Positions 19,913 to 31,391 of a stretch of 64,000 nt of DNA are shown here, in pieces. The stretch lies in NCBI RefSeq assembly GCF_024653915.1, contig NZ_JANLGY010000016.1, positions 1-64,000 on the forward strand, in the 5' to 3' direction. Position 1 is the first letter of the stretch. Every line of letters begins with the position of its first letter. A program made the position numbers and the translations under genes. This DNA comes from Sulfuricaulis sp. GTDB taxonomy: Bacteria > Pseudomonadota > Gammaproteobacteria > Acidiferrobacterales > Sulfurifustaceae. The notes beneath the pieces were generated by a model. The model saw only the letters and a list, made by a program, of their open reading frames with translations. It was not told the origin of the DNA and did not search any database.

Positions 19913-20053
19913 GCTGGCAAAGCCTGAAAAAAAGGGGATTTCTTGTTCAATTTTCCGTCCCTGAAGCTGCGTTGGCCCGATCAGTGCGGGCCGACTCGTG
20001 TGATAGGATATCGTAAACGTCACCAACGTGTCCTCCCCTCGCCCACATCCCGC

Positions 20054-22383: not shown

Positions 22384-23075
22384 AAGACGCGCTTCGCCAG
22401 CATCATCTTTATATGCCCGATGGCCTTGGCCGGGTTCAGTCCCTTGGGGCAGACTTCGGTGCAATTCATGATGGTATGGCAACGGAACAGCTTATAAGGA
22501 TCTTCCAGATCGTCGAGGCGCTCGCCGGTGGCTTGGTCGCGACTATCCGCCAGAAAACGCCAAGATTGCAGTAAGGCCGCCGGCCCCAGAAACTTATCGG
22601 GATTCCACCAGAATGACGGGCAAGCCGTTGTACAACAGGCACAAAGTACGCACTCGTAAAGACCGTCCAGCTTGTCGCGGTCTTCCGGCGCCTGTAGCCG
22701 CTCAATCTCCGGCTCCGGATCATGATTGATCACCCAAGGCTTCACCGCCCGGTAGGCGCTGTAAAACTGGCTCAGGTCCACAATCAGGTCACGCACTACC
22801 GGTACACCCGAGAGCGGCTTTAGCTCAATCGGCTGCCTCAGGCTATCCAGCGGGGTGATGCAGGCCAAGCCGTTGCGGCCATTGATATTCATTCCGTCTG
22901 ACCCACAGACCCCCTCTCTGCAGGAACGCCGGAATCCGAGGCTGTCATCCTGTTGCTTGAGCAACAGCAGCGCATCCAGCAACATGACCGCCCCACTGTC
23001 ATCGGACAGCTCGTAGGCCTGCATACGCGGCTTTTTGTCGGTTTCGGGATTGAAGCGATAGATCGAAAATCGCAT
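22380..23075 (-). CDS. sdhB: Succinate dehydrogenase iron-sulfur subunit
   Basis: A 231-residue SdhB that passes electrons from SdhA to ubiquinone. The [2Fe-2S] ligands are in SCREGVCGSDGMNINGRNGLAC, the first [4Fe-4S]/[3Fe-4S] set in CVLCACCTTACPSFWWNP, and the last in CHTIMNCTEVCPKGLNPAKA. It is full length and begins MRFSIYRFNPE. It is followed by sdhE, but sdhA lies about 6.5 kb upstream on the same strand beyond an inserted region, so it needs its own promoter or long read-through. Confidence 0.97.
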   Translation of the reverse strand: MRFSIYRFNPETDKKPRMQAYELSDDSGAVMLLDALLLLKQQDDSLGFRRSCREGVCGSDGMNINGRNGLACITPLDSLRQPIELKPLSGVPVVRDLIVDLSQFYSAYRAVKPWVINHDPEPEIERLQAPEDRDKLDGLYECVLCACCTTACPSFWWNPDKFLGPAALLQSWRFLADSRDQATGERLDDLEDPYKLFRCHTIMNCTEVCPKGLNPAKAIGHIKMMLAKRVL

Positions 23076-23238
23076 GCGTTGAGTTTAGCCGTTTGTCCTA
23101 CCCTGTGAAACACCGGAAAACCCGGCATTTACTACCCGAAACAGCCCGGAATACCAACCAGTAATCCCCATGTTTCCCGCCTTTGGTCGGCCCAAGGCGG
23201 CTCGCTCCCGGAACTACGCTAATAATTAACACATCAGA

Positions 23239-23271
23239 CACGGAAACAGCTCCAGAGAGAGCGTTTCCGTG
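23239..23271 (+). promoter_or_regulatory. Leader hairpin before the membrane/VWA gene pair
   Basis: CACGGAAAC at 23239-23247 pairs perfectly with GTTTCCGTG at 23263-23271 (AGC/GCT-type bases extend it), ending about 20 bases before the ATG and just ahead of the GGGAGAG ribosome-binding site. It could control translation or stabilise the mRNA; there is no T-run of terminator type. Confidence 0.45.
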
Positions 23272-23291
23272 TTTCACATTGGGAGAGAGCC

Positions 23292-24770
23292 ATGGAAATT
23301 CTGCACGCCTTAATCGTCTGGCCGGACCAGCTGTTGTTGTCCCTGCTGCTTCTGTTTTTCATCGCTGTCCCAATACTCTACGGCGCGCGCCAGGCGATGC
23401 ACAGCCTGCTGCATGCCATGTTCCGCGCGGTCAGCAATCCGCTGCGCCTGATGTCACGCTGGCTGTTCAAGTCAGCCGATGCGCTACGTGAGCGCAACAA
23501 GCTCGTGCTGTTGTCACGCGGACGCGAAGAGGTCTCGCTCAACATCGTCAAGGAATTCGACCGCGTCACCAGCCTGGTCGAACGCGACCTGCACGGTTAC
23601 CCGGCGCTGCAGCGCAAGCTCATGGACGAGATCACGCGCATCGAGGAGGAATTCCAGAAATGCGGTGAAGTACCGCCGCCGCCTCCGGAATGGACCAAGG
23701 CCGTGGCCGCCATCGCCAAGATCAAACCCTCTGGCGATGGGCTGGTGGAACGGATACTGGAAGACATCAGTAACTCTATTGATGATGTCTACGACAAAGT
23801 TGTCGCCGAGTACCGCGAGTCATCCAAGCAACGCCATAATATTCTCAAGAACTTCATGCCGTTCTGGCGCTCAGTCGACCGCAGTCTGAAACGGGTCGAC
23901 AAGGATCTCACCGGCATGCAGCAGAGCGCCGCCAAGATCGACGAGCAGGTTGAGAAGTTCAAACAGATCCATGCCAAGAGCGAAAATGCCGAACATTCGC
24001 TGACCTCCTCCTCCACAATCCTGTTCGTGATTTCGCTGCTGGCGATCACGATCGCCGCCGGTGGCGCGTTCGTGAACTTCTGGCTCATCGAGCGTCCGAT
24101 GGCCGCCATGGTCGGCGGGTCCGAATACATCGTCGGCGATATTCAGGCATCTTATCTCGCCGCTATGGTGATTATCTTCTTCGAGACTCTGATGGGTTTG
24201 TTCCTGATGGAGTCGCTGGGCTACACCCATCTGTTCCCGCTCAACAACCTCAACAATCGCATGCGGCGCTGGCTGGTATGGATTTCCTTCAGCATCCTGC
24301 TGATTCTTGCCGGCGTGGAAGTAGCGCTGGCAGTCATGCGCGACTTGATCATTTCGGCTGATATCGCGCTGAAACAGGAACTGGCCGGTGGCAGCGCTGT
24401 TACCGCCGCAGTAGCCAATTCCTGGGCGCTCGATATTCCCAAGGCGGCTCAGATGATCCTCGGCTTCACCCTGCCCTTCGCGCTGGCCTTTGTGGCCATC
24501 CCGCTGGAGTACCTTATCCATTCCGGGCGCACGGTGTTCGGCGCATTGCTGGTACTTTCCATCCGTGCGCTGGGTTTTGCCATGCGTTTCATTTCCACGA
24601 TGGTGCACCAGATCGGCAAGGGCACTGGGTACCTTTATGATGCCATCATCTTTCTGCCACTGATCATTGAGCGCGCTGTGATGAATCGTGGCCCACGCCA
24701 AGCCACACTGCCACCGGGCAGTTCAGGCGGCATGGCCGCCTTATCCAAACACGGGGAGCATGTACTGTGA
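23292..24770 (+). CDS. Polytopic membrane protein with cytoplasmic coiled coil, VWA partner
   Basis: A 492-residue protein I do not recognise. It has an N-terminal hydrophobic helix (about 10-30), a long charged and partly coiled region (about 50-240) with KRVDKDLTGMQQSAAKIDEQVEKFKQIHAKSENAEHS, then about five membrane helices between 245 and 450 (for example ILFVISLLAITIAAGGAF and YLAAMVIIFFETLMGLFLM). The ATG has GGGAGAG upstream. The next gene starts inside its stop (GTGA) and encodes a VWA lipoprotein, so the two products very likely form one complex in the envelope. Confidence 0.75.
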   Translation: MEILHALIVWPDQLLLSLLLLFFIAVPILYGARQAMHSLLHAMFRAVSNPLRLMSRWLFKSADALRERNKLVLLSRGREEVSLNIVKEFDRVTSLVERDLHGYPALQRKLMDEITRIEEEFQKCGEVPPPPPEWTKAVAAIAKIKPSGDGLVERILEDISNSIDDVYDKVVAEYRESSKQRHNILKNFMPFWRSVDRSLKRVDKDLTGMQQSAAKIDEQVEKFKQIHAKSENAEHSLTSSSTILFVISLLAITIAAGGAFVNFWLIERPMAAMVGGSEYIVGDIQASYLAAMVIIFFETLMGLFLMESLGYTHLFPLNNLNNRMRRWLVWISFSILLILAGVEVALAVMRDLIISADIALKQELAGGSAVTAAVANSWALDIPKAAQMILGFTLPFALAFVAIPLEYLIHSGRTVFGALLVLSIRALGFAMRFISTMVHQIGKGTGYLYDAIIFLPLIIERAVMNRGPRQATLPPGSSGGMAALSKHGEHVL

Positions 24771-25432
24771 GCCGGCGCTTCTGGATTATTCCTGTTCTGG
24801 CGTTAAGCCTGTTCGCCATCTCCTGCGCTGACCAACGTACCCACGCACAAGCGGTCTACATGCTGGTGGACACCTCGGGGACTTACTCCAAAGAACTCGA
24901 CAAGGCCCAGCGCGTCGTGAGCTACATGCTGGGCACGCTGAAGGCCGGTGATTCCTTCGCCGTGGCGCGGGTCAAGAGCCGCAGCTTTTCCGAGAAAGAT
25001 ATTATTGCCAAGGTGTCTCTGGGCAAAGACCCGATGCAGATGAACAACCAGAAGCGCGAGTTCGCGCACAAGGTCGGCACCTTCAAGGCCGACCTCAAAA
25101 AAGGCAGCGCCTACACCGACATCACCGGCGGCATGATCCAGGCCTCGGAATTCCTGAACGAGACCGGCGCCGGACAGAAAACCATCCTGATTTTCTCCGA
25201 CATGCAGGAAGAGCTGGACTACAAAACCGTGCGCGATTTTCCGATCGATTTAAAAGGCATACGCATCATCGCGCTGAACGTCACCAAGCTCACCACCGAC
25301 AACGTTGATCCGCGACGTTATATGGGGCGTCTGGAATGGTGGGAAAAGCGCGCCCGCGACGCCGGGGCTTCAGACTGGAAGGTGGTGAACGATCTGGAGC
25401 ATCTGGAGCGCATCTTTAAGGGCCGAGGATAA
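24767..25432 (+). CDS. VWA-domain lipoprotein, coupled to membrane protein
   Basis: A 221-residue protein with a signal peptide and a lipobox-like end ISC at Cys20. The mature part is a von Willebrand factor A fold: MLVDTSGTYSKELDK supplies the MIDAS DxSxT/S loop, AYTDITGGMIQASEFL the Thr loop, and ILIFSDMQEE the second Asp, so metal binding looks intact. VWA domains mediate protein contacts. It begins with GTG overlapping the stop of the preceding membrane-protein gene. I know no characterised system made of this pair. Confidence 0.8.
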   Translation: MSRRFWIIPVLALSLFAISCADQRTHAQAVYMLVDTSGTYSKELDKAQRVVSYMLGTLKAGDSFAVARVKSRSFSEKDIIAKVSLGKDPMQMNNQKREFAHKVGTFKADLKKGSAYTDITGGMIQASEFLNETGAGQKTILIFSDMQEELDYKTVRDFPIDLKGIRIIALNVTKLTTDNVDPRRYMGRLEWWEKRARDAGASDWKVVNDLEHLERIFKGRG

Positions 25433-25568
25433 GAAATGTCCTATGAGTTCGGTGTTGTGACAAAAGCGCATCTGCAGCGAGTAATTATCTAACCTCTTTT
25501 TACAAGAAGCTGTAACCTGTCTGCTATCGGCCAGAAGCAGCCGGTCGGGTTATCCTTAAAAACCTGAC

Positions 25569-25628
25569 ACTCAACGTTCACGTAAAATGCGCGAGCTTGC
25601 GAGCAAACTAATTGACGCGTTGTTAAGT
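25569..25628 (-). other. attC site 1 (end of array)
   Basis: Read on the minus strand, the inverse core ACTTAAC (ends at 25628) and the core GTTGAGT (25575-25569) pair at 6 of 7 positions, and match RYYYAAC and GTTRRRY. The arms ACGCGTCAAT and ATTTTACGTG are partly complementary, around a GCTCGCAAGC inner palindrome. Length is 60 bases. The TAA of the upstream gene lies inside the inverse core. Confidence 0.75.
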
Positions 25629-26384
25629 GCATATTTCTCGAATCTTATTTCCCATCAACTTCAATAAATAATTGCTATTTAGACCGGAAGGACCAGAGAA
25701 GAATGGAATGACTACTAATTTAGTCTGCTCATCAATATTGACCCAATAGTAGCGTCTTTTATATTGTCTATTGTTTTCCGAGGTAGGAGTAATGTCTTCA
25801 TATTTAATAAGTCCACTAGTACTTTGGCCCCCACCGAAGCACATAAAGAACTCGCGTAGATAACTTACTCCTGTGCAAATAATTAATTTAGGCGCTTTCT
25901 CTTCTCTGAGCCTGGATAAGGCGGGGAATCTGTTCATAAAGCACCAAGTTTGAAATAAGTGCTTTTCATCAAACCCGGTGATTTCTTTTAATTTATATTT
26001 TTGCCAGAGAGATTCGTTTGTTGAATCAAATGCTATTGGGTATAGATTCAATTTGAACAATTCTGATCCATCCCATTTATTTAGAGCAAGATCCCTGTAA
26101 TCTTCGCCACTTTCTCCCTGCATGGCCGCGTAAAGCTTCGCAAAGCTCCTGCCATATGGATATGTGATGCTGTCTTTCCATTTAAACAGGTTTTGTTCTG
26201 GAGTGAACTTGCCCTTACTGATTTCTTCAGGCAAATGCTTTTCATAGTAAATTCCGTCTTCGTAACTGCCGCCTCCCCATTCAATTCCACAAAGCCAAGT
26301 GTCGGCCTCTATATTTCCACCATCACAGCCCGACAAAGAACAAACCCACTCTTGAAAATTCTTAGGTATCATCAATACTTCCAT
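25623..26384 (-). CDS. Cassette protein, possible UDG-superfamily fold
   Basis: About 253 residues, no clear family. An N-terminal strand TWLCGIEWGGG, a middle strand KLIICTGVSYLREFF, and a C-terminal VVIPFFSGPSGLNSNYLLKLMG line up with the glycine-rich, central and HPSGxN-like motifs of uracil-DNA-glycosylase-fold proteins, but the His is missing and the match is by eye only. I took the ATG at 26384 (MEVLMIPKN); ATG 26372 is possible. It is A+T-rich compared with sdh genes. Its stop codon is inside attC site 1. No attC is visible between it and the zinc-ribbon gene, so the two may share a cassette. Confidence 0.6.
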   Translation of the reverse strand: MEVLMIPKNFQEWVCSLSGCDGGNIEADTWLCGIEWGGGSYEDGIYYEKHLPEEISKGKFTPEQNLFKWKDSITYPYGRSFAKLYAAMQGESGEDYRDLALNKWDGSELFKLNLYPIAFDSTNESLWQKYKLKEITGFDEKHLFQTWCFMNRFPALSRLREEKAPKLIICTGVSYLREFFMCFGGGQSTSGLIKYEDITPTSENNRQYKRRYYWVNIDEQTKLVVIPFFSGPSGLNSNYLLKLMGNKIREICT

Positions 26385-26521
26385 ATGCGCTAGCAAGCGC
26401 TATCCGGTATCTCATTGTCAAAGTCCTCGCTAAGGTCGATTTGAGTGAGAGGCTTGAAGCTACCGGAAAGGATTTAAGCCACCAGATATACATCTAGTTT
26501 GGCCTGTAATTACAGATTTTC

Positions 26522-26707
26522 TCAGTCAGCGGTAGTGACGGTGTCCAGAGAATTGCAAAACGGGCAGACGTTTACAGCCCCGGGGAAAGAAGGATAATTA
26601 GGAACCTTGCCGGGCTGCTGAATGCAATTCTCGCACCAAATTTGTTTACATTTAGTACACTGCCTCATATTACAACCACTAGTAGAGCAATAACGACAGG
26701 AAGCCAT
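26522..26707 (-). CDS. Zinc-ribbon microprotein in cassette
   Basis: A 61-residue cysteine-rich protein. CRYCSTSGC, CTKCKQIWCENC and CPFC give at least eight cysteines in CxxC pairs, enough for two structural zinc sites. The start is well supported by AAGGAGA 7 bases before the ATG. No family assigned. It follows an attC-like site and precedes the possible UDG-fold gene, so it could be the first gene of a two-gene cassette. Confidence 0.65.
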   Translation of the reverse strand: MASCRYCSTSGCNMRQCTKCKQIWCENCIQQPGKVPNYPSFPGAVNVCPFCNSLDTVTTAD

Positions 26708-26743
26708 ACGATTCTCCTTTCACTTTAGAGAGTTCTACTTATC

Positions 26744-26833
26744 ACATAACGACAAACTGGCCTGTCTGATTCTTTTTGCCAGTCGCAAAGAGAGCATACT
26801 GTATGCAGTGCTGTTTGTGAAATACGGTTAAGT
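26744..26833 (-). other. attC-like site 2 (weaker)
   Basis: On the minus strand, inverse core ACTTAAC (26833-26827) and core GTTATGT (26750-26744) pair at 6 of 7 positions. Inner arms CACAAACAG and CAGTTTGTC are near-complementary, and a GCATACaGTATGC palindrome lies inside. At 90 bases it is within the attC size range, but pairing is less complete than in the other sites. Confidence 0.5.
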
Positions 26834-27045
26834 GTTGTCACTATCACCAATTGCACCTACGAACAATAACTGAGCATGCTGCTGTGAGGCTGGATAGATG
26901 TTCGTCTCTGCTGGCGTATCAATAACATAGCTATTGTTATGATTTGTGACTGACTGCTATGGGTCGAATTCTGACGGTCGGTTAACGGCCACTTCCGGTC
27001 ATTACCTTTCCCAAAAGCGGACGGTCGCAGTATTCGGAAACGGAC
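26834..27045 (-). other. Apparently gene-less cassette
   Basis: The 212 bases between attC sites 2 and 3 contain no convincing gene. One 64-codon frame opens with TTG at 27051 without a ribosome-binding site. The strand carries a degenerate inverted motif around GACCGTCCGCTTTTGGG and GACCGGAAGTGGCC. Cassettes that lack an open frame are known; some carry promoters or small RNAs, but I see no specific signal here. Confidence 0.4.
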
Positions 27046-27109
27046 ATTCAACGTTTAAGCTGTGGGGCGCGTAGCGAAGCAAGCGTCCCACACGAGCACA
27101 TTGTTATGC
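27046..27109 (-). other. attC site 3
   Basis: On the minus strand, inverse core GCATAAC (27109-27103) and core GTTGAAT (27052-27046). The arms GTGTGGGACGC and GCGCCCCACAG are complementary with one bulge, around a TTGCTTCGCTAC loop, giving a 64-base attC. The TAA of the NERD gene lies in the inverse core, as in true cassettes. Confidence 0.85.
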
Positions 27110-27778
27110 GTTTTTTGTAAATCGACAGTTCGGATAGTTTTCACACCCTAGAAATTTCGAACCTGCTTTAAGACCTTTTCTCGCCGTTCGTTCAACTAAG
27201 TTAGAACCACACTTCGGGCAAACTGTTGTAGAGCTGTGCCGTTCGCGCAAAGACTGCATATGATCTTTGGTTGTAAGTGTAGACTCTGAAATAAGTTTTT
27301 CGATTATTTTTAATGTGCGACTAATTTCTTCTGCCGAAAGTACGCGATCACGATATTGTTTTATGTATGAACTCAGACCAGATCTTATTACGTTATCTGG
27401 CAATTCGGTTTTGAACTTACAGTTGCCAACGAAATAGATAATTGTACGAATGATGGATTCATCAAGGCTAAGATATTCAGAGAGGACCTTCTTTTGTCTG
27501 AAGGTTTGTCGAATAGGATTCTGAAACGAATAATTTTTGCCATATAGTGATTGGGTCCAATTTGACTGATCCTCAGATCCAAATATCCATCCCTTTATAT
27601 TTTTTGTTTCTATTATAAATACCCCATATGGTGACACTAAAAGATGATCTATCTGAGTTGTTCCGTTTTTTGTGGGTATAATGACATCATGAAATCTCCG
27701 ATAAATATCGGCATTAAGGGACAGCCACATATTGAAAGCTGTTTTCTTTTCGCCGAACCATCCTCGTAGTATTCTCAT
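27104..27778 (-). CDS. NERD-domain protein with C4 zinc finger
   Basis: A 224-residue protein. The N-terminal nuclease-related domain (about 1-120) shows GEKKTAFNMWLSL, the HDVIIPTKNGTTQIDHLLVSPYGVFIIETKN core (Asp and Glu-x-Lys of the PD-(D/E)xK-like fold), and NPIRQTFRQKKVL. A C-terminal topoisomerase-type C4 zinc finger (CPKCGSNLV...CENYPNC) follows. Likely a DNA-acting enzyme. The ATG at 27778 lies 10 bases past a core site GTTATGC, the typical spacing of a cassette gene. NERD proteins occur in mobile and defence-like loci; role here is not proved. Confidence 0.85.
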   Translation of the reverse strand: MRILRGWFGEKKTAFNMWLSLNADIYRRFHDVIIPTKNGTTQIDHLLVSPYGVFIIETKNIKGWIFGSEDQSNWTQSLYGKNYSFQNPIRQTFRQKKVLSEYLSLDESIIRTIIYFVGNCKFKTELPDNVIRSGLSSYIKQYRDRVLSAEEISRTLKIIEKLISESTLTTKDHMQSLRERHSSTTVCPKCGSNLVERTARKGLKAGSKFLGCENYPNCRFTKNA

Positions 27779-27787
27779 TTCATTTCC

Positions 27788-27878
27788 GCATAACGATTGA
27801 GGTGTGCCGCGCCGGCCGCAAAAGCATCAGGAAACATGGTGCGTCGTCCCCGGCGTCGGCACGAACAAAGTGTTAGGT
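27788..27878 (-). other. attC site 4
   Basis: On the minus strand, inverse core ACCTAAC (27878-27872) and core GTTATGC (27794-27788). Strong arms GTGCCGACGCCGG and CCGGCGCGGCAC pair with a single bulged base, around a longer loop. Length is 91 bases. It follows the small membrane-anchored gene by seven bases. Confidence 0.85.
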
Positions 27879-27884
27879 TTCAAA

Positions 27885-28292
27885 TTAGACAATATCAGTG
27901 TAAATCCTTAGGTGTTGTTTGATTCTTTCAATCCGTTTATCTGCTTTGTCGTAGTCTATCGTGTTCGACAGTCCCATCAGATGAGTAGCCGCTTCCATTG
28001 GGTCTTCGCCATTACGGCCCAACCATTTCCTGTACCAAAAAGGAAGATCTTTATAAGAAGCCCTTAGCTCGGCGGAGTGGCGGCGGTTGGCCTCGACTCG
28101 CTGGTCCTTTCGGTCTTTCATTAGCTCAATTAGACCATCAGCATTAATTGCATTGGCATAAAAGATGAGATCCGTAAAGATTTGGTGTTTTATTTCCCGG
28201 TATCGAAGTATCGGTTGAAACCAGAACGTCGTAAGTAAATAGCCGCCAGCACCAGCGAGAATACTTACGAAAACGACAATGTATTCCTTCAC
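27885..28292 (-). CDS. Membrane-anchored cassette protein, unknown function
   Basis: About 135 residues with one N-terminal TM helix (YIVVFVSILAGAGGYLLTTFWF) and a charged, helical cytoplasmic region (MKDRKDQRVEANRRHSAELRASYKDL). No family recognised. The long reading frame opens upstream near a MITE end; a GTG at 28292 is preferred because AAGGGAG stands 5 bases upstream and the hydrophobic helix follows at once. It begins soon after the core site GTTAGGT and ends ahead of attC site 4. Confidence 0.65.
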   Translation of the reverse strand: MKEYIVVFVSILAGAGGYLLTTFWFQPILRYREIKHQIFTDLIFYANAINADGLIELMKDRKDQRVEANRRHSAELRASYKDLPFWYRKWLGRNGEDPMEAATHLMGLSNTIDYDKADKRIERIKQHLRIYTDIV

Positions 28293-28312
28293 CACATCTC
28301 CCTTACGTTGAA

Positions 28313-28594
28313 ACCTAACGAGACTGTAGGAAAAGTTCCTTTTCGGACCCCAACTTACCAGATGCGACACAGTGCGATGAAAGTGCCGTTGTGTCGACGG
28401 ATTTCAACGATGTGTGCAAATACTCGTCACGCAGGCTCTGGCGCATTTCTGTCTGTATTTCCATTTCGATCCAGTACTTTTGCCACTACCTATTGTTTGT
28501 GCAAATCGGTGTCGATTTGGGGTTTTCCTACAGTCTCAACGCTATTGCTCACGCGCGTGCATCTTCGCACGTCGCGTGCAGCAATTTGTTAGCT
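28313..28594 (-). other. attC site 5, split by a MITE
   Basis: The two halves are 28313-28319 (ACCTAAC on the plus strand) and 28538/28541-28594 (ending GTTAGCT). Joined without the 218-base insertion and one AAC copy they give a 61-base attC: cores GTTAGGT and AGCTAAC, arms ATTGCTCACGCGCGTGC and GCACGTCGCGTGCAGCAAT that pair with two bulges, and an ATCTTC loop. As it stands the site cannot fold into a normal attC hairpin, so the UDG cassette is probably locked in place. Confidence 0.8.
28320..28537. mobile_element. 218-bp MITE in the attC core
   Basis: Perfect 15-base terminal inverted repeats GAGACTGTAGGAAAA (28320-28334) and TTTTCCTACAGTCTC (28523-28537) bound the element. Both ends are flanked by AAC (28317-28319 and 28538-28540), a 3-base target duplication. 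There is no open frame large enough for a transposase. The termini resemble those of IS5-type elements, so it may be a non-autonomous derivative; the family assignment is inference. Confidence 0.85.
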
Positions 28595-29374
28595 CTTAGT
28601 GAAATCAAGCCGCTCACGGACATTCTGTGCCATGACGAAATATGCCGCGTCCAGATCGGCTGCGCGATGACGTACCGGATCCTTTGGCTTTAGATCATCA
28701 ATACGCTTTTTGCGCATGAAATACGAGAACTGCGATCCTGCGTTGCCGGAAGGATGCGGCAGATAGCCAAGATATTGACTCGCCGCAACTGCACCATTCG
28801 CTATGCACCACTTCATCGCTTCGTCAACGACGGGCCCCATTGCAATGACGAATGGCTTCTTTGCGAGCTGAGCGAACGTGGTGACAAACCCGTTCTCGAA
28901 TTCACGACGGAATATCGTTCTGGAAAGTACGTCGTTAAATGGACCATTGAAGTATTTGCCAGCCTTGAAAGCAGCATTTGGAATGATGGAAGTGGGATGA
29001 AAGAAATCGTAATTGCTGCCCCATAGCGACGCCGCGCTGTTCAGGCCAAGTTTTTGGGGGATCATGAAATGGTCCAACATTTCATTGATCCGAGGCCTCA
29101 TTCCGTCGAAAGCTGCTGTTTGCTTCGCCTTTCTCAAAACCCCAGCAGCGGGTAGTGAACCCCGTAAAGCCACGCCCGCAACTCTATGGGCAGTATTCAT
29201 CTGGGTCGGTCCGGGAGTGATGCCGACGAGGACAAGCTTCGCGTCAATGTTCACTTCTTCAAACGGCACGTAATAGACCTCTGCCTCACGCTCCGAATCT
29301 AGCAAATAGGAACGTACGCTAGCGGAGTCGGCCTTGAGCAGGGTTGCAAAGCGCTCTAGTAAGGTTGAATGCAT
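28589..29374 (-). CDS. Uracil-DNA-glycosylase-superfamily protein
   Basis: A 261-residue protein. The motifs LVLVGITPGPTQ (near 49-60, the first glycosylase motif) and YLPHPSGNAG (near 204-213, the HPSGxN motif) are those of the UDG fold; a middle FHPTS segment also fits. UDG-like enzymes remove damaged bases from DNA. It is a cassette gene: the ATG at 29374 is 12 bases after a core-like GTTAGCT, and the TAA lies in attC site 5. Substrate specificity cannot be told. Confidence 0.8.
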   Translation of the reverse strand: MHSTLLERFATLLKADSASVRSYLLDSEREAEVYYVPFEEVNIDAKLVLVGITPGPTQMNTAHRVAGVALRGSLPAAGVLRKAKQTAAFDGMRPRINEMLDHFMIPQKLGLNSAASLWGSNYDFFHPTSIIPNAAFKAGKYFNGPFNDVLSRTIFRREFENGFVTTFAQLAKKPFVIAMGPVVDEAMKWCIANGAVAASQYLGYLPHPSGNAGSQFSYFMRKKRIDDLKPKDPVRHRAADLDAAYFVMAQNVRERLDFTKS

Positions 29375-29385
29375 GTTCTTGTGAG

Positions 29386-29392
29386 AGCTAAC
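29386..29392 (-). other. Core site at the upstream edge of the array
   Basis: On the minus strand GTTAGCT, the exact counterpart of the AGCTAAC inverse core of attC site 5, lies 12 bases before the UDG-like ATG. It marks the recombination boundary of the first cassette. No folded attC arm is visible on its sdhA side. Confidence 0.55.
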
Positions 29393-29488
29393 AGATAATA
29401 TAAGGGCAATTTTCTCAGGATATCCTCAGTACTGATAGTGTCGATACGAATGATCTAAACACCTGTTCAGTCTGGAAATTATTCTTCT

Positions 29489-29524
29489 CCGGTCCGTGTA
29501 TCCTGATTATGTTATACGGACCGG
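29489..29524. repeat. Strong hairpin between sdhA and the cassette array
   Basis: CCGGTCCGTGTA (29489-29500) pairs with TATACGGACCGG (29513-29524), eleven of twelve bases, around a 12-base loop. There is no T-run on either strand, so it is not a standard terminator. It is the only conspicuous structure in the 250 bases between sdhA and the first cassette. Confidence 0.5.
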
Positions 29525-29624
29525 TGGGTGCGAGGTTGCGTTGTACTGGCCCTTCTTGGCTACGGCTGCTTCGGGTCGAAAGCGGACTGAGCGTATTTTG
29601 GGTAGAAGGGCTAATTTAGCGGCG

Positions 29625-31391
29625 TTAATACACCCTTTCCTTCGGCGGAAAAGTTTCAACGCTAAGCGGCTTCAACCGCACCGGCTTGTAATCGAGCTTG
29701 TTCCCTTCTTTGCTGTAAAGCGTGTGCTTGAGCCAGTTCTTGTCGTCGCGCTCGGGATAATCGGTTCTTGAATGTGCGCCGCGGGATTCGTGGCGCGCGG
29801 CGGCGGAATGGATCGTGGCCAGCGCGATGTCCATCAGGTTTTCCAGTTCCAATGCTTCTATCCGGGCGGTATTGAACACCTTGCTGTGGTCGCGCAACGT
29901 GGCCCGTTTCAGGCGCGCTTGCAGCTCCGCGACCTTTTTGATACCGGCATCGAGGATTTTCTGCTCGCGGAACACGCCGCAGTGTTCTTCCATGACCAGG
30001 CGCAGCTCGTCACAGATCAGATCGACGGATTCGCCCTCGCCCTGCTTGTCCCAGCGCGTCAGGCGCGCCATGGCGCGGTCAATGGCCTCCTCCGGCATGG
30101 CGCGATGGCGGGGATTTTCCTTGAGATATTGGAGGATGTGATTGCCGGCAGCGCGGCCGAAGACAATGATATCGAGCAGTGAATTGCCGCCGAGGCGGTT
30201 GGCGCCGTGCACCGACACGCAGGCGCATTCACCCACGGCGTACATGCCCGGTACTTCCTCTTCCGGCCCGGTGTGCACCGGCACCACGACTTGACCGTGG
30301 CGGTTGGTAGGAATGCCACCCATGGTGTAGTGCGCCGTGGGATACACCGGGATAGGTTTTTCCACCGGGTCAGTATGTGCGAAGCGGATAGCCAATTCGC
30401 GTATGCCCGGCAGGCGCTTGGAAATGATTTCCTCACCGAGATGATCGACCTTCAGCAGTACATGGTCCTTCTTCGGGCCGCAACCGCGCCCGGCGTGGAC
30501 TTCCTCGTAGATCGCACGGCTGATCACGTCGCGGCTGGCGAGGTCCTTGGCTTTGGGTGCATAGCGTTCCATGAAGCGCTCGCCCTCGCCGTTGATCAGA
30601 TACCCACCCTCGCCGCGCACGGCTTCCGAAATAAGCATGCCCTTGCCAGCGATGCCAGTGGGATGGAATTGCACGAACTCCATGTCCTGCAATGGAACGC
30701 CGGCGCGCAGCGCCATGGCCATGCCATCGCCGGTGTTGATGAGCGCATTGGTGGTGGTGCGGTAGACGCGCGCCACCCCGCCGGTGGCGATGAGCGTGGT
30801 TTTGGCCTCGATGATTAACGGCTCACCGGTTTCGATTTCGATCACCAGCGCGCCGAGGGCATAACCGTCCTTGTCCATCAGCAGATCGACGGCAAAGAAT
30901 TCATCGAAGAAGTGCGTGCGTGCCTTCAGGTTCTGCTGATAGAGAGCATGCAGCATGGCGTGGCCGGTACGGTCGGCCGCCGGACAAGTGCGCATCGCCT
31001 GTTCGCCACCAAAGTTCAGGCTCTGGCCGCCAAAGGCGCGCTGGTAGATGCGGCCATTTTCCAGGCGCGAGAACGGCACGCCGTAATGTTCGAGCTCGAT
31101 CACCAGATTCGCCGCCGCGCGGCACATGTATTCGATCGCGTCCTGATCACCGAGATAGTCGCCACCCTTCACGGTGTCGTACATGTGAAAGTGCCAGTTG
31201 TCCGGTTGTGTATTGCCGAGCGCCGCGTTGATGCCGCCCTGCGCCGCCACGGTGTGCGAGCGCGTGGGGAACACCTTGGACACCACGGCGACATGGGCCT
31301 CGCCCTGCGCCAGTTGCAGCGCCGCGCGCAATCCGCCGCCCCCGGCGCCGATGACAAGGCAGTCGAAACGCCGGCGCGCGATATTCTTCAT
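29625..31391 (-). CDS. sdhA: Succinate dehydrogenase flavoprotein subunit
   Basis: A 588-residue SdhA that oxidises succinate to fumarate. The FAD site shows CLVIGAGGGGLRAALQLA. The His that carries covalent FAD is in TRSHTVAAQGG (His46). The body has EFVQFHPTGIAG, SEAVRGEGGYL, RDVISRAI (with the catalytic Arg) and HGANRLGGNSLLDIIVFG. I chose the ATG at 31391, which overlaps the sdhD stop (ATGA). Unusually, sdhB does not follow directly; a 6.5-kb insert intervenes. Confidence 0.97.
   Translation of the reverse strand: MKNIARRRFDCLVIGAGGGGLRAALQLAQGEAHVAVVSKVFPTRSHTVAAQGGINAALGNTQPDNWHFHMYDTVKGGDYLGDQDAIEYMCRAAANLVIELEHYGVPFSRLENGRIYQRAFGGQSLNFGGEQAMRTCPAADRTGHAMLHALYQQNLKARTHFFDEFFAVDLLMDKDGYALGALVIEIETGEPLIIEAKTTLIATGGVARVYRTTTNALINTGDGMAMALRAGVPLQDMEFVQFHPTGIAGKGMLISEAVRGEGGYLINGEGERFMERYAPKAKDLASRDVISRAIYEEVHAGRGCGPKKDHVLLKVDHLGEEIISKRLPGIRELAIRFAHTDPVEKPIPVYPTAHYTMGGIPTNRHGQVVVPVHTGPEEEVPGMYAVGECACVSVHGANRLGGNSLLDIIVFGRAAGNHILQYLKENPRHRAMPEEAIDRAMARLTRWDKQGEGESVDLICDELRLVMEEHCGVFREQKILDAGIKKVAELQARLKRATLRDHSKVFNTARIEALELENLMDIALATIHSAAARHESRGAHSRTDYPERDDKNWLKHTLYSKEGNKLDYKPVRLKPLSVETFPPKERVY

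Follow-up and report, generated by a model that had tools for sequence, protein, structure and literature searches.

A 218-bp element in the core triplet of an attC site and its kinship with a putative attC-targeting group of the IS1182 family

In the 64 000-nucleotide stretch of Sulfuricaulis sp. DNA analysed here (contig NZ_JANLGY010000016.1, positions 1–64 000; hereafter the window), a gene-cassette array reads on the minus strand, and one of its attC sites is occupied by a 218-bp element at positions 28320–28537. With a probability of roughly 0.86, we consider this element to belong, together with other miniature inverted-repeat transposable elements (MITEs), to an IS1182-family group with a DDE transposase that inserts directionally at C^GTT^R within the R′ cores of attCs. 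At the level of sequence, the copies have their ends in common, are bordered by GTT repeats, lie mostly in an attC context and show a bias in orientation, and their full-length relatives, which are insertion sequences (ISs), encode an IS1182 transposase.

The occupied attC site and its cassette array

The two 15-nt terminal inverted repeats of the element, GAGACTGTAGGAAAA at 28320–28334 and TTTTCCTACAGTCTC at 28523–28537, are 100% complementary, and ends of the same type bound ISs of the IS1182 family; together with alignments to other copies they mark the element as a MITE lying in the minus-strand orientation of the array. AAC stands on each side (28317–28319 and 28538–28540), which is GTT on the array strand. 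When the flanks are joined with a single AAC, a 61-nt sequence is obtained that reads AGCTAAC…GTTAGGT on the minus strand and whose hairpin fold resembles that of an attC (−22.0 kcal/mol with DNA parameters; z −8.4 relative to 500 mononucleotide shuffles). An earlier sequence-only reading of this stretch had described the inverted ends, the length and the flanking triplets and had proposed that removal of the element with one AAC rebuilds an attC of 61 bases, and it was right on both counts. Along the minus strand the upstream gene is followed by the attC hairpin closing in GTT, the element, GTTAGGT and the next cassette; since the array reads on this strand, the core that was struck is R′, the half in which the integrase cuts G^TT.

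The attC body (28538–28594, minus), supported by its hairpin fold and by the attC scan, comprises the R″ core AGCTAAC (28588–28594), the hairpin and the duplicated GTT (28538–28540, minus) that closes the upstream attC, and scores 24.5 in the scan, compared with 19.6 at the 98th percentile of shuffles. The other copy of the triplet (28317–28319, minus) marks the original junction and forms part of GTTAGGT (28313–28319, minus), which by sequence and fold is the displaced remainder of the R′ core, with which the next cassette now begins. No attC belonging to the element itself was found at its 3′ end by reading or by the attC scan, which misses one attC that is recognizable by eye, and an Rfam scan of window positions 23000–31000 gave nothing reaching the gathering score.

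The insertion keeps the upstream hairpin and G^TT and alters only the four bases past GTT, from AGGT to GAGA; in the predicted fold of the occupied site the long stem is retained and the R box opens or is lost. The occupied attC may be weakened, or it may still work. Destruction of recombination and a frozen cassette, as the sequence-only reading had it, are not supported by this geometry, nor by the two sister attCs of the array that read GTTGAGTG (25573–25631, minus, far end approximate) and GTTGAATG (27046–27109, minus, belonging to the cassette with the NERD domain described below) at R′ and are free of the element; both were located by the attC scan and by sequence.

The upstream cassette holds a gene for 261 amino acids (28589–29374, minus, from the list of open reading frames) that matches no Pfam or NCBIfam model, and among PDB sequences only a uracil-DNA glycosylase matches it, at E 0.95, which leaves the glycosylase label given to this cassette unproven. 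The gene of the downstream cassette (27885–28292, minus) has, as judged by eye, a likely GTG start at 28292 behind GGGAG, and its listed open reading frame extends back into the MITE, to 28370. The next attC (27788–27878, minus), intact with R″ ACCTAAC and R′ GTTATGC, was recognized by eye and is the one missed by the attC scan. Beyond it lies a cassette gene (27104–27778, minus) in which a domain search finds a NERD domain and topoisomerase-type zinc-ribbon domains; in PADLOC this gene also matches PglW in part (E 8e-9). Between window positions 20000 and 36000 the attC scan reports four places, namely the occupied site, 25575, 27052 and 30698, the last of which lies inside a conserved FAD-protein gene and is probably a false call. 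No integron integrase above the family cut-off was found in the genome to which the window belongs (the own genome), and the array is therefore taken as an attC cluster without an integrase.

Further copies and their GTT target

The own genome (2.73 Mb in 31 contigs) contains two further copies, adjoining each other on contig C22, which are 86% and 74% identical to the window element over 218 bases. Both lie between CCTAAC and AACG, and CCTAAC|..|AACG holds for all own-genome copies (3/3). The two C22 MITEs have the same orientation and bracket one cassette (G000:C22:184433–185410, corresponding to locus L004 12434–13411), the 159-aa gene of which, on the minus strand, resembles by eye a PIN-type toxin. 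Beside them lies a dispersed repeat unrelated to the MITE (L004 13495–13628), which also occurs at G006:C46, at G000:C6 and in G020, with 94% identity in G006 and several match places in G020. An open frame of 49 aa runs through all three own-genome copies; we considered it as a conserved small MITE protein and rejected this, since some clusters lack it and single-base gaps occur in the alignments. On the array strand the stop codon of this frame (L001/L002) is the TAG of the target's GTTAG.

Among 60 genomes, the own included, matches to the element were found in four: besides the own genome, two genomes hold a full copy and a third a partial one; in full-length alignments the copy of genome G014 is 71% and that of G006 70% identical to the window element. 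In a genome collection of 84,980 species, 32 contigs matched a pattern of both ends with no flank included. Judged by their longer ends, 21 of these are true members, with GTT on both sides in 20 and on one side in L043; they come from Gammaproteobacteria (including Acidiferrobacterales and Thiodiazotropha), Deltaproteobacteria bins, Geothermobacter and a Nitrospirae bin. None of the remaining 11 (Firmicutes, Bacteroidetes and Cyanobacteria) has GTT on both sides. The Firmicutes elements L048, L051 and L032, with similar ends of the CTGTAGCAAA type, have short inverted flanks (for example GAA|..|TTC) and not direct repeats, as if they had been inserted into a palindrome. No copies were found in the plasmid collection with two MITE queries, and among viral contigs there were three pattern matches, none with full ends or with GTT on both sides, and no relative of the transposase.

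Selection by end similarity alone (at most three mismatches to the consensus over both 16-base ends) gave 52 end pairs, from which L025 2982 and L044 3073, being mispaired neighbouring ends, and L051, a Ruminococcaceae element with ends GAGACTGTAGCAAA and flanks GAA/TTC that was set aside as another family, were dropped. The 49 distinct copies that remain comprise 24 short ones (207–232 bp) and 25 of IS size (1314–1833 bp), and each of the 49 stands between two GTT triplets, mostly as CGTT|element|GTTR, which is the R′ core of an attC. The 24 short copies are non-coding and have the type of terminal inverted repeat and the target repeat in common with the autonomous ISs, as befits MITEs. For later counts L132, with four mismatches, was added to give 50 copies (raising the longest IS-sized length to 1839 bp), and other pairs with four or five mismatches stayed uncounted. 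C precedes GTT in 47 of the 48 readable cases, and the two bases following the second GTT are AG in 29, AT in 13, AA in four, GG in two, and GA and AC in one copy each. A separate set of 40 loci was reached through the transposase (L161 and L163 repeat L155 and L140); 38 of them have at least one end within two mismatches, and all 67 such ends stand at GTT/AAC. A MITE in an attC core triplet, with a preference for attC or for GTT, as the sequence-only reading had put forward, is thus supported by the two other own-genome copies and by 49/49 copies at GTT, which is the opposite of the random triplets that it had weighed against this idea. That the triplet was hit by chance, which was conceivable while a single copy was visible, is refuted by these 49 copies, most of the tested ones in attCs.

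The attC character of the sites could be assessed in 46 of the 50 cases, the other four having too little upstream sequence. The R″/L″ consensus, in a test that was devised after the sites had been inspected, is found in 31/46 sites compared with 47/261 control CGTTA sites of the same loci (Fisher p 5e-11), and 34/46 sites have a leave-one-out score, taken over both halves, that lies above the 98th percentile of shuffled sequence. The score of the 3′ half alone exceeds the control 95th percentile in 32/46 sites (Mann–Whitney p 4e-21), positions −16 to −9 before GTT hold 0.26–0.65 bits in the sites compared with 0–0.03 in the controls, and T-N-A at −11 to −9 occurs in 26/46 sites compared with 38/764 controls. 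As for an empty site, which the sequence-only reading had asked for, no orthologous one was found: the upstream cassette of the window copy is present in one of the 57 genomes of the order, namely the own, and the match table holds none for the C22 pair. A homologous one was found in L185, a locus of another genome, where the occupied attC has, some 600 bp away, an intact counterpart that is homologous to it through both halves.

The 12 sites below the score threshold bear on how the target is recognized. Six of them (L092, L160, L044, L006, L049 and L139) keep a 3′ half above the control 90th percentile, which points to recognition of the L′–R′ side, carried as a rule, but not always, by a whole attC. 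It is quite possible, although we hold it somewhat below even odds, that the transposase reads only a short linear double-stranded sequence of about TNA-N8-CGTTR and that the folding of the attC is irrelevant; this would be compatible with an IS1182-family group inserting in the R′ core, and the enrichment of T-N-A agrees with it. However, the 3′ halves of the other six sites are lower, those of L034, L155 and L154 far lower (L034 being nevertheless an attC by eye), and the consensus of the far side, R″/L″, is enriched as well. Moreover, stem-loops are the reported targets of another family member, IS1272, which replaces them without a target repeat, although some of its older copies lie at targets that are not inverted repeats (PMC5678879).

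Full-length relatives and the direction of insertion

Single ends with at most two mismatches were found in 27/57 genomes of the order compared with 18/57 for a reversed-pattern control, so that a single end taken by itself is weak evidence; from such ends, inverted pairs 1.3–1.8 kb apart were reached. The 1761-bp element at L089 encodes a 522-aa protein that matches the NCBIfam IS1182 model NF033551 over residues 8–514 with 273.6 bits (cut-off 270) and the Pfam DDE models PF13751 and PF01609 above their cut-offs; the shortened protein of L090 reaches 196.1 bits on the IS1182 model, under the cut-off. Terminal inverted repeats bound the gene in 25 IS-sized copies. Homologues of the transposase occur in 11/57 genomes of the order at E ≤ 0.001, with the close type in three (G035, G006 and G003), in 20/369 genomes of the class at 1e-40 and in 4/398 genomes of the phylum at 1e-60, and the plasmid collection yields three large records at 1e-30, from Pseudoalteromonas and Catenovulum.

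The 17 long transposases form one clade with 100/100 support, apart from five other IS1182 transposases, in a tree with long outgroup branches. Among these five, ISKpn6 and an element of genome G029 have clear ends (GAG.CTG and CAGCCTG) and a 4-bp CTAG repeat; around the other three no clear ends were seen. The attC-group transposases fail to group with the tested IS1182 elements and have GTT instead of their CTAG, and from their sequences we read them as a distinct group inside the IS1182 family. Given the CTAG repeat of these elements and the stem-loop targeting of IS1272, we interpret GTT as the target repeat of a DDE enzyme, with the palindrome replaced by the attC core.

Every copy was turned so that GTT is on the reading strand. 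The MITE interiors then run the same way in 83/84 pairs that align over at least 60 bp, the lone exception being a 62-bp match. Alignments of at least 100 bp give clusters of 14, six, three and one copies, and the three larger clusters are each uniform in orientation; if orientation were free, such agreement would have a probability of about 2^-20, with the insertions taken as independent, and the printed flanks differ. The longest reading frame of the ISs lies on the array strand in 23/26, the exceptions being two related G006 copies and one from Catenovulum. From these comparisons, insertion appears to be directional. In L142 an IS lies between an attC and another element, with the right flank GTTGAGGCTG, and in L026 two elements have one GTT in common; an occupied attC can therefore probably be hit again.

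We propose that the window element is a non-autonomous derivative, a MITE, of the distinct IS1182-family group, the DDE transposase of which would insert at C^GTT^R in the attC R′ core and duplicate GTT as its target. The choice of target appears to depend on the 3′ half of the attC, where the L′ box precedes GTT by about nine bases, and to be directional, and the MITEs would have been moved in trans by an IS1182 transposase. The element would then lie inside the borders of the next cassette, as the leader of the downstream cassette, where an integron integrase could carry it. With no such transposase and no integrase above the cut-off found in the own genome, the copies found there look like relics.

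Points of doubt, alternatives and related systems

Several observations weigh against this proposal, in addition to the late design of the R″/L″ test. Transposition itself is inferred from sequence, and the search for transposase homologues found none in the own genome, which leaves it with no autonomous partner. DDE elements are usually pictured with a symmetric target, and one that is directional and asymmetric is unusual among them. No end was seen at the transposase loci L149 and L152, GTT is missing from one side of the degenerate L043, and the triplet of L100 is GTC. Among 25 lone ends with at most one mismatch, 14 stand at GTT/AAC and 11 elsewhere; some of the latter are probably chance matches, and degenerate copies such as L100 are also among them. 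The generic attC tests are weak: core complementarity is seen in 11/45 sites compared with 37/267 controls (p 0.08), the fold test is passed by 17/45 compared with 53/267 (p 0.01), and arm pairing reaches p < 0.05 in 5/46 sites, with scores that are overall above those of the controls (p 5e-5). The control sets of these tests and of the consensus test contain some real or attC-like sites, and we would attribute the weakness of the generic tests to unpaired spacers in the arms and to the bases after GTT, which are part of the next cassette. Finally, low scores and no recognizable attC are seen at L155, L139 and L156 and at the two G681 copies, L154 and L160.

An association with the integron integrase is seen in the class sample, in which 16 of 19 IS carriers have an integrase above the cut-off compared with six of 18 genomes without a transposase match (p 0.0025), these 18 being the listed class genomes less G000 and G458 and not a random draw. 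The link weakens, again to the disadvantage of the proposal, when G341 and six carriers from the order and phylum are added (18/26, p 0.03). The carriers without an integrase above the cut-off are G003, G006, G035, G197, G442, G532, G602 and G649, of which G003 and G035 have fragments.

Because insertion restores G^TT upstream, the IS or MITE becomes the leader of the downstream cassette in a further reading that we put forward tentatively: as a leader it may be excised and spread by the integron integrase without an attC of its own, so that it would parasitize the cassette system and not break it. A different role for the integrase, that it placed the elements in the first instance, seems improbable to us. 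Here a circle with GTT at its joined ends would recombine at G^TT, and the flanking GTTs would be core sites; the triplet is indeed the exact G^TT crossover, located between the first and second base of GTTRRRY (PMC8876359). The uniform orientation of the MITE clusters would follow naturally, and the tandem elements with a common GTT (L026 and L142) and the frequency of the integrase among the class-sample carriers point the same way. However, by scan and by eye no attC is seen at the 3′ end of the window element, copies lie at CGTTR sites without a clear attC (L154, L155 and L160), eight carriers are without an integrase above the cut-off, two of them with fragments, and the related IS1182 elements ISKpn6 and that of G029 have their own CTAG target repeat, as a DDE enzyme predicts. 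The simpler idea that the element is itself a gene cassette was not favoured, as no attC of its own is visible, and entry driven by the integrase was kept as an alternative to insertion by an IS1182-family transposase.

Insertions directed at attC are known from other systems. A paper on Xanthomonas integrons states that attC-targeting insertion sequences are often seen, citing two IS1111 papers. The IS1111-attC elements (ISKpn4, ISPst6 etc.) have a DEDD transposase, guidance by a seekRNA and sub-terminal repeats (PMC11187229), whereas the present group has a DDE transposase of the IS1182 family and not one of the DEDD IS110/IS1111 type, terminal repeats and a 3-bp GTT repeat. By the NCBIfam and Pfam models it shares its transposase family with IS1182 elements such as ISKpn6, the ends of which likewise begin GAG.CTG, but the 4-bp CTAG repeat of ISKpn6 and of the G029 element is replaced by the 3-bp GTT in attC. 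Group IIC-attC introns are likewise mobile and use attC hairpins as landing sites (PMC7923331), but are retroelements that act via RNA and have no transposase. The MITEs flanking integrons in Acinetobacter are likewise MITEs tied to integrons, but flank whole class 1 integrons, which they are thought to move (PMC10969869); attC has no occurrence in the text of this source as consulted. In the literature searched, judged mainly by titles and abstracts and with ISfinder outside the comparison, no description links IS1182 with attC targeting, and the consulted part of PMC10057117 does not mention attC.

These comparisons suggest an unrecognized group of mobile elements specialized on the gene-cassette system in several bacterial classes. 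The elements known to land specifically at attC are the IS1111-attC group and group IIC-attC introns; to them, a DDE family accompanied by small passengers would add an independent case of convergence, which shows the strength of the attC as a landing pad and raises the question of how a DDE enzyme attains a directional, asymmetric target. In the annotation of arrays such insertions can split an attC call and mimic an empty cassette, and the geometry of the insertion offers a direct test of an IS riding a cassette. Two smaller observations concern the IS loci. The IS copy of G571 has a partial integron integrase (G571:C38:31024–31701) about 1 kb away, and at L134 1233–1745, from Catenovulum, a gene with a group II intron maturase domain is annotated near the IS and is possibly a second element drawn to the array.
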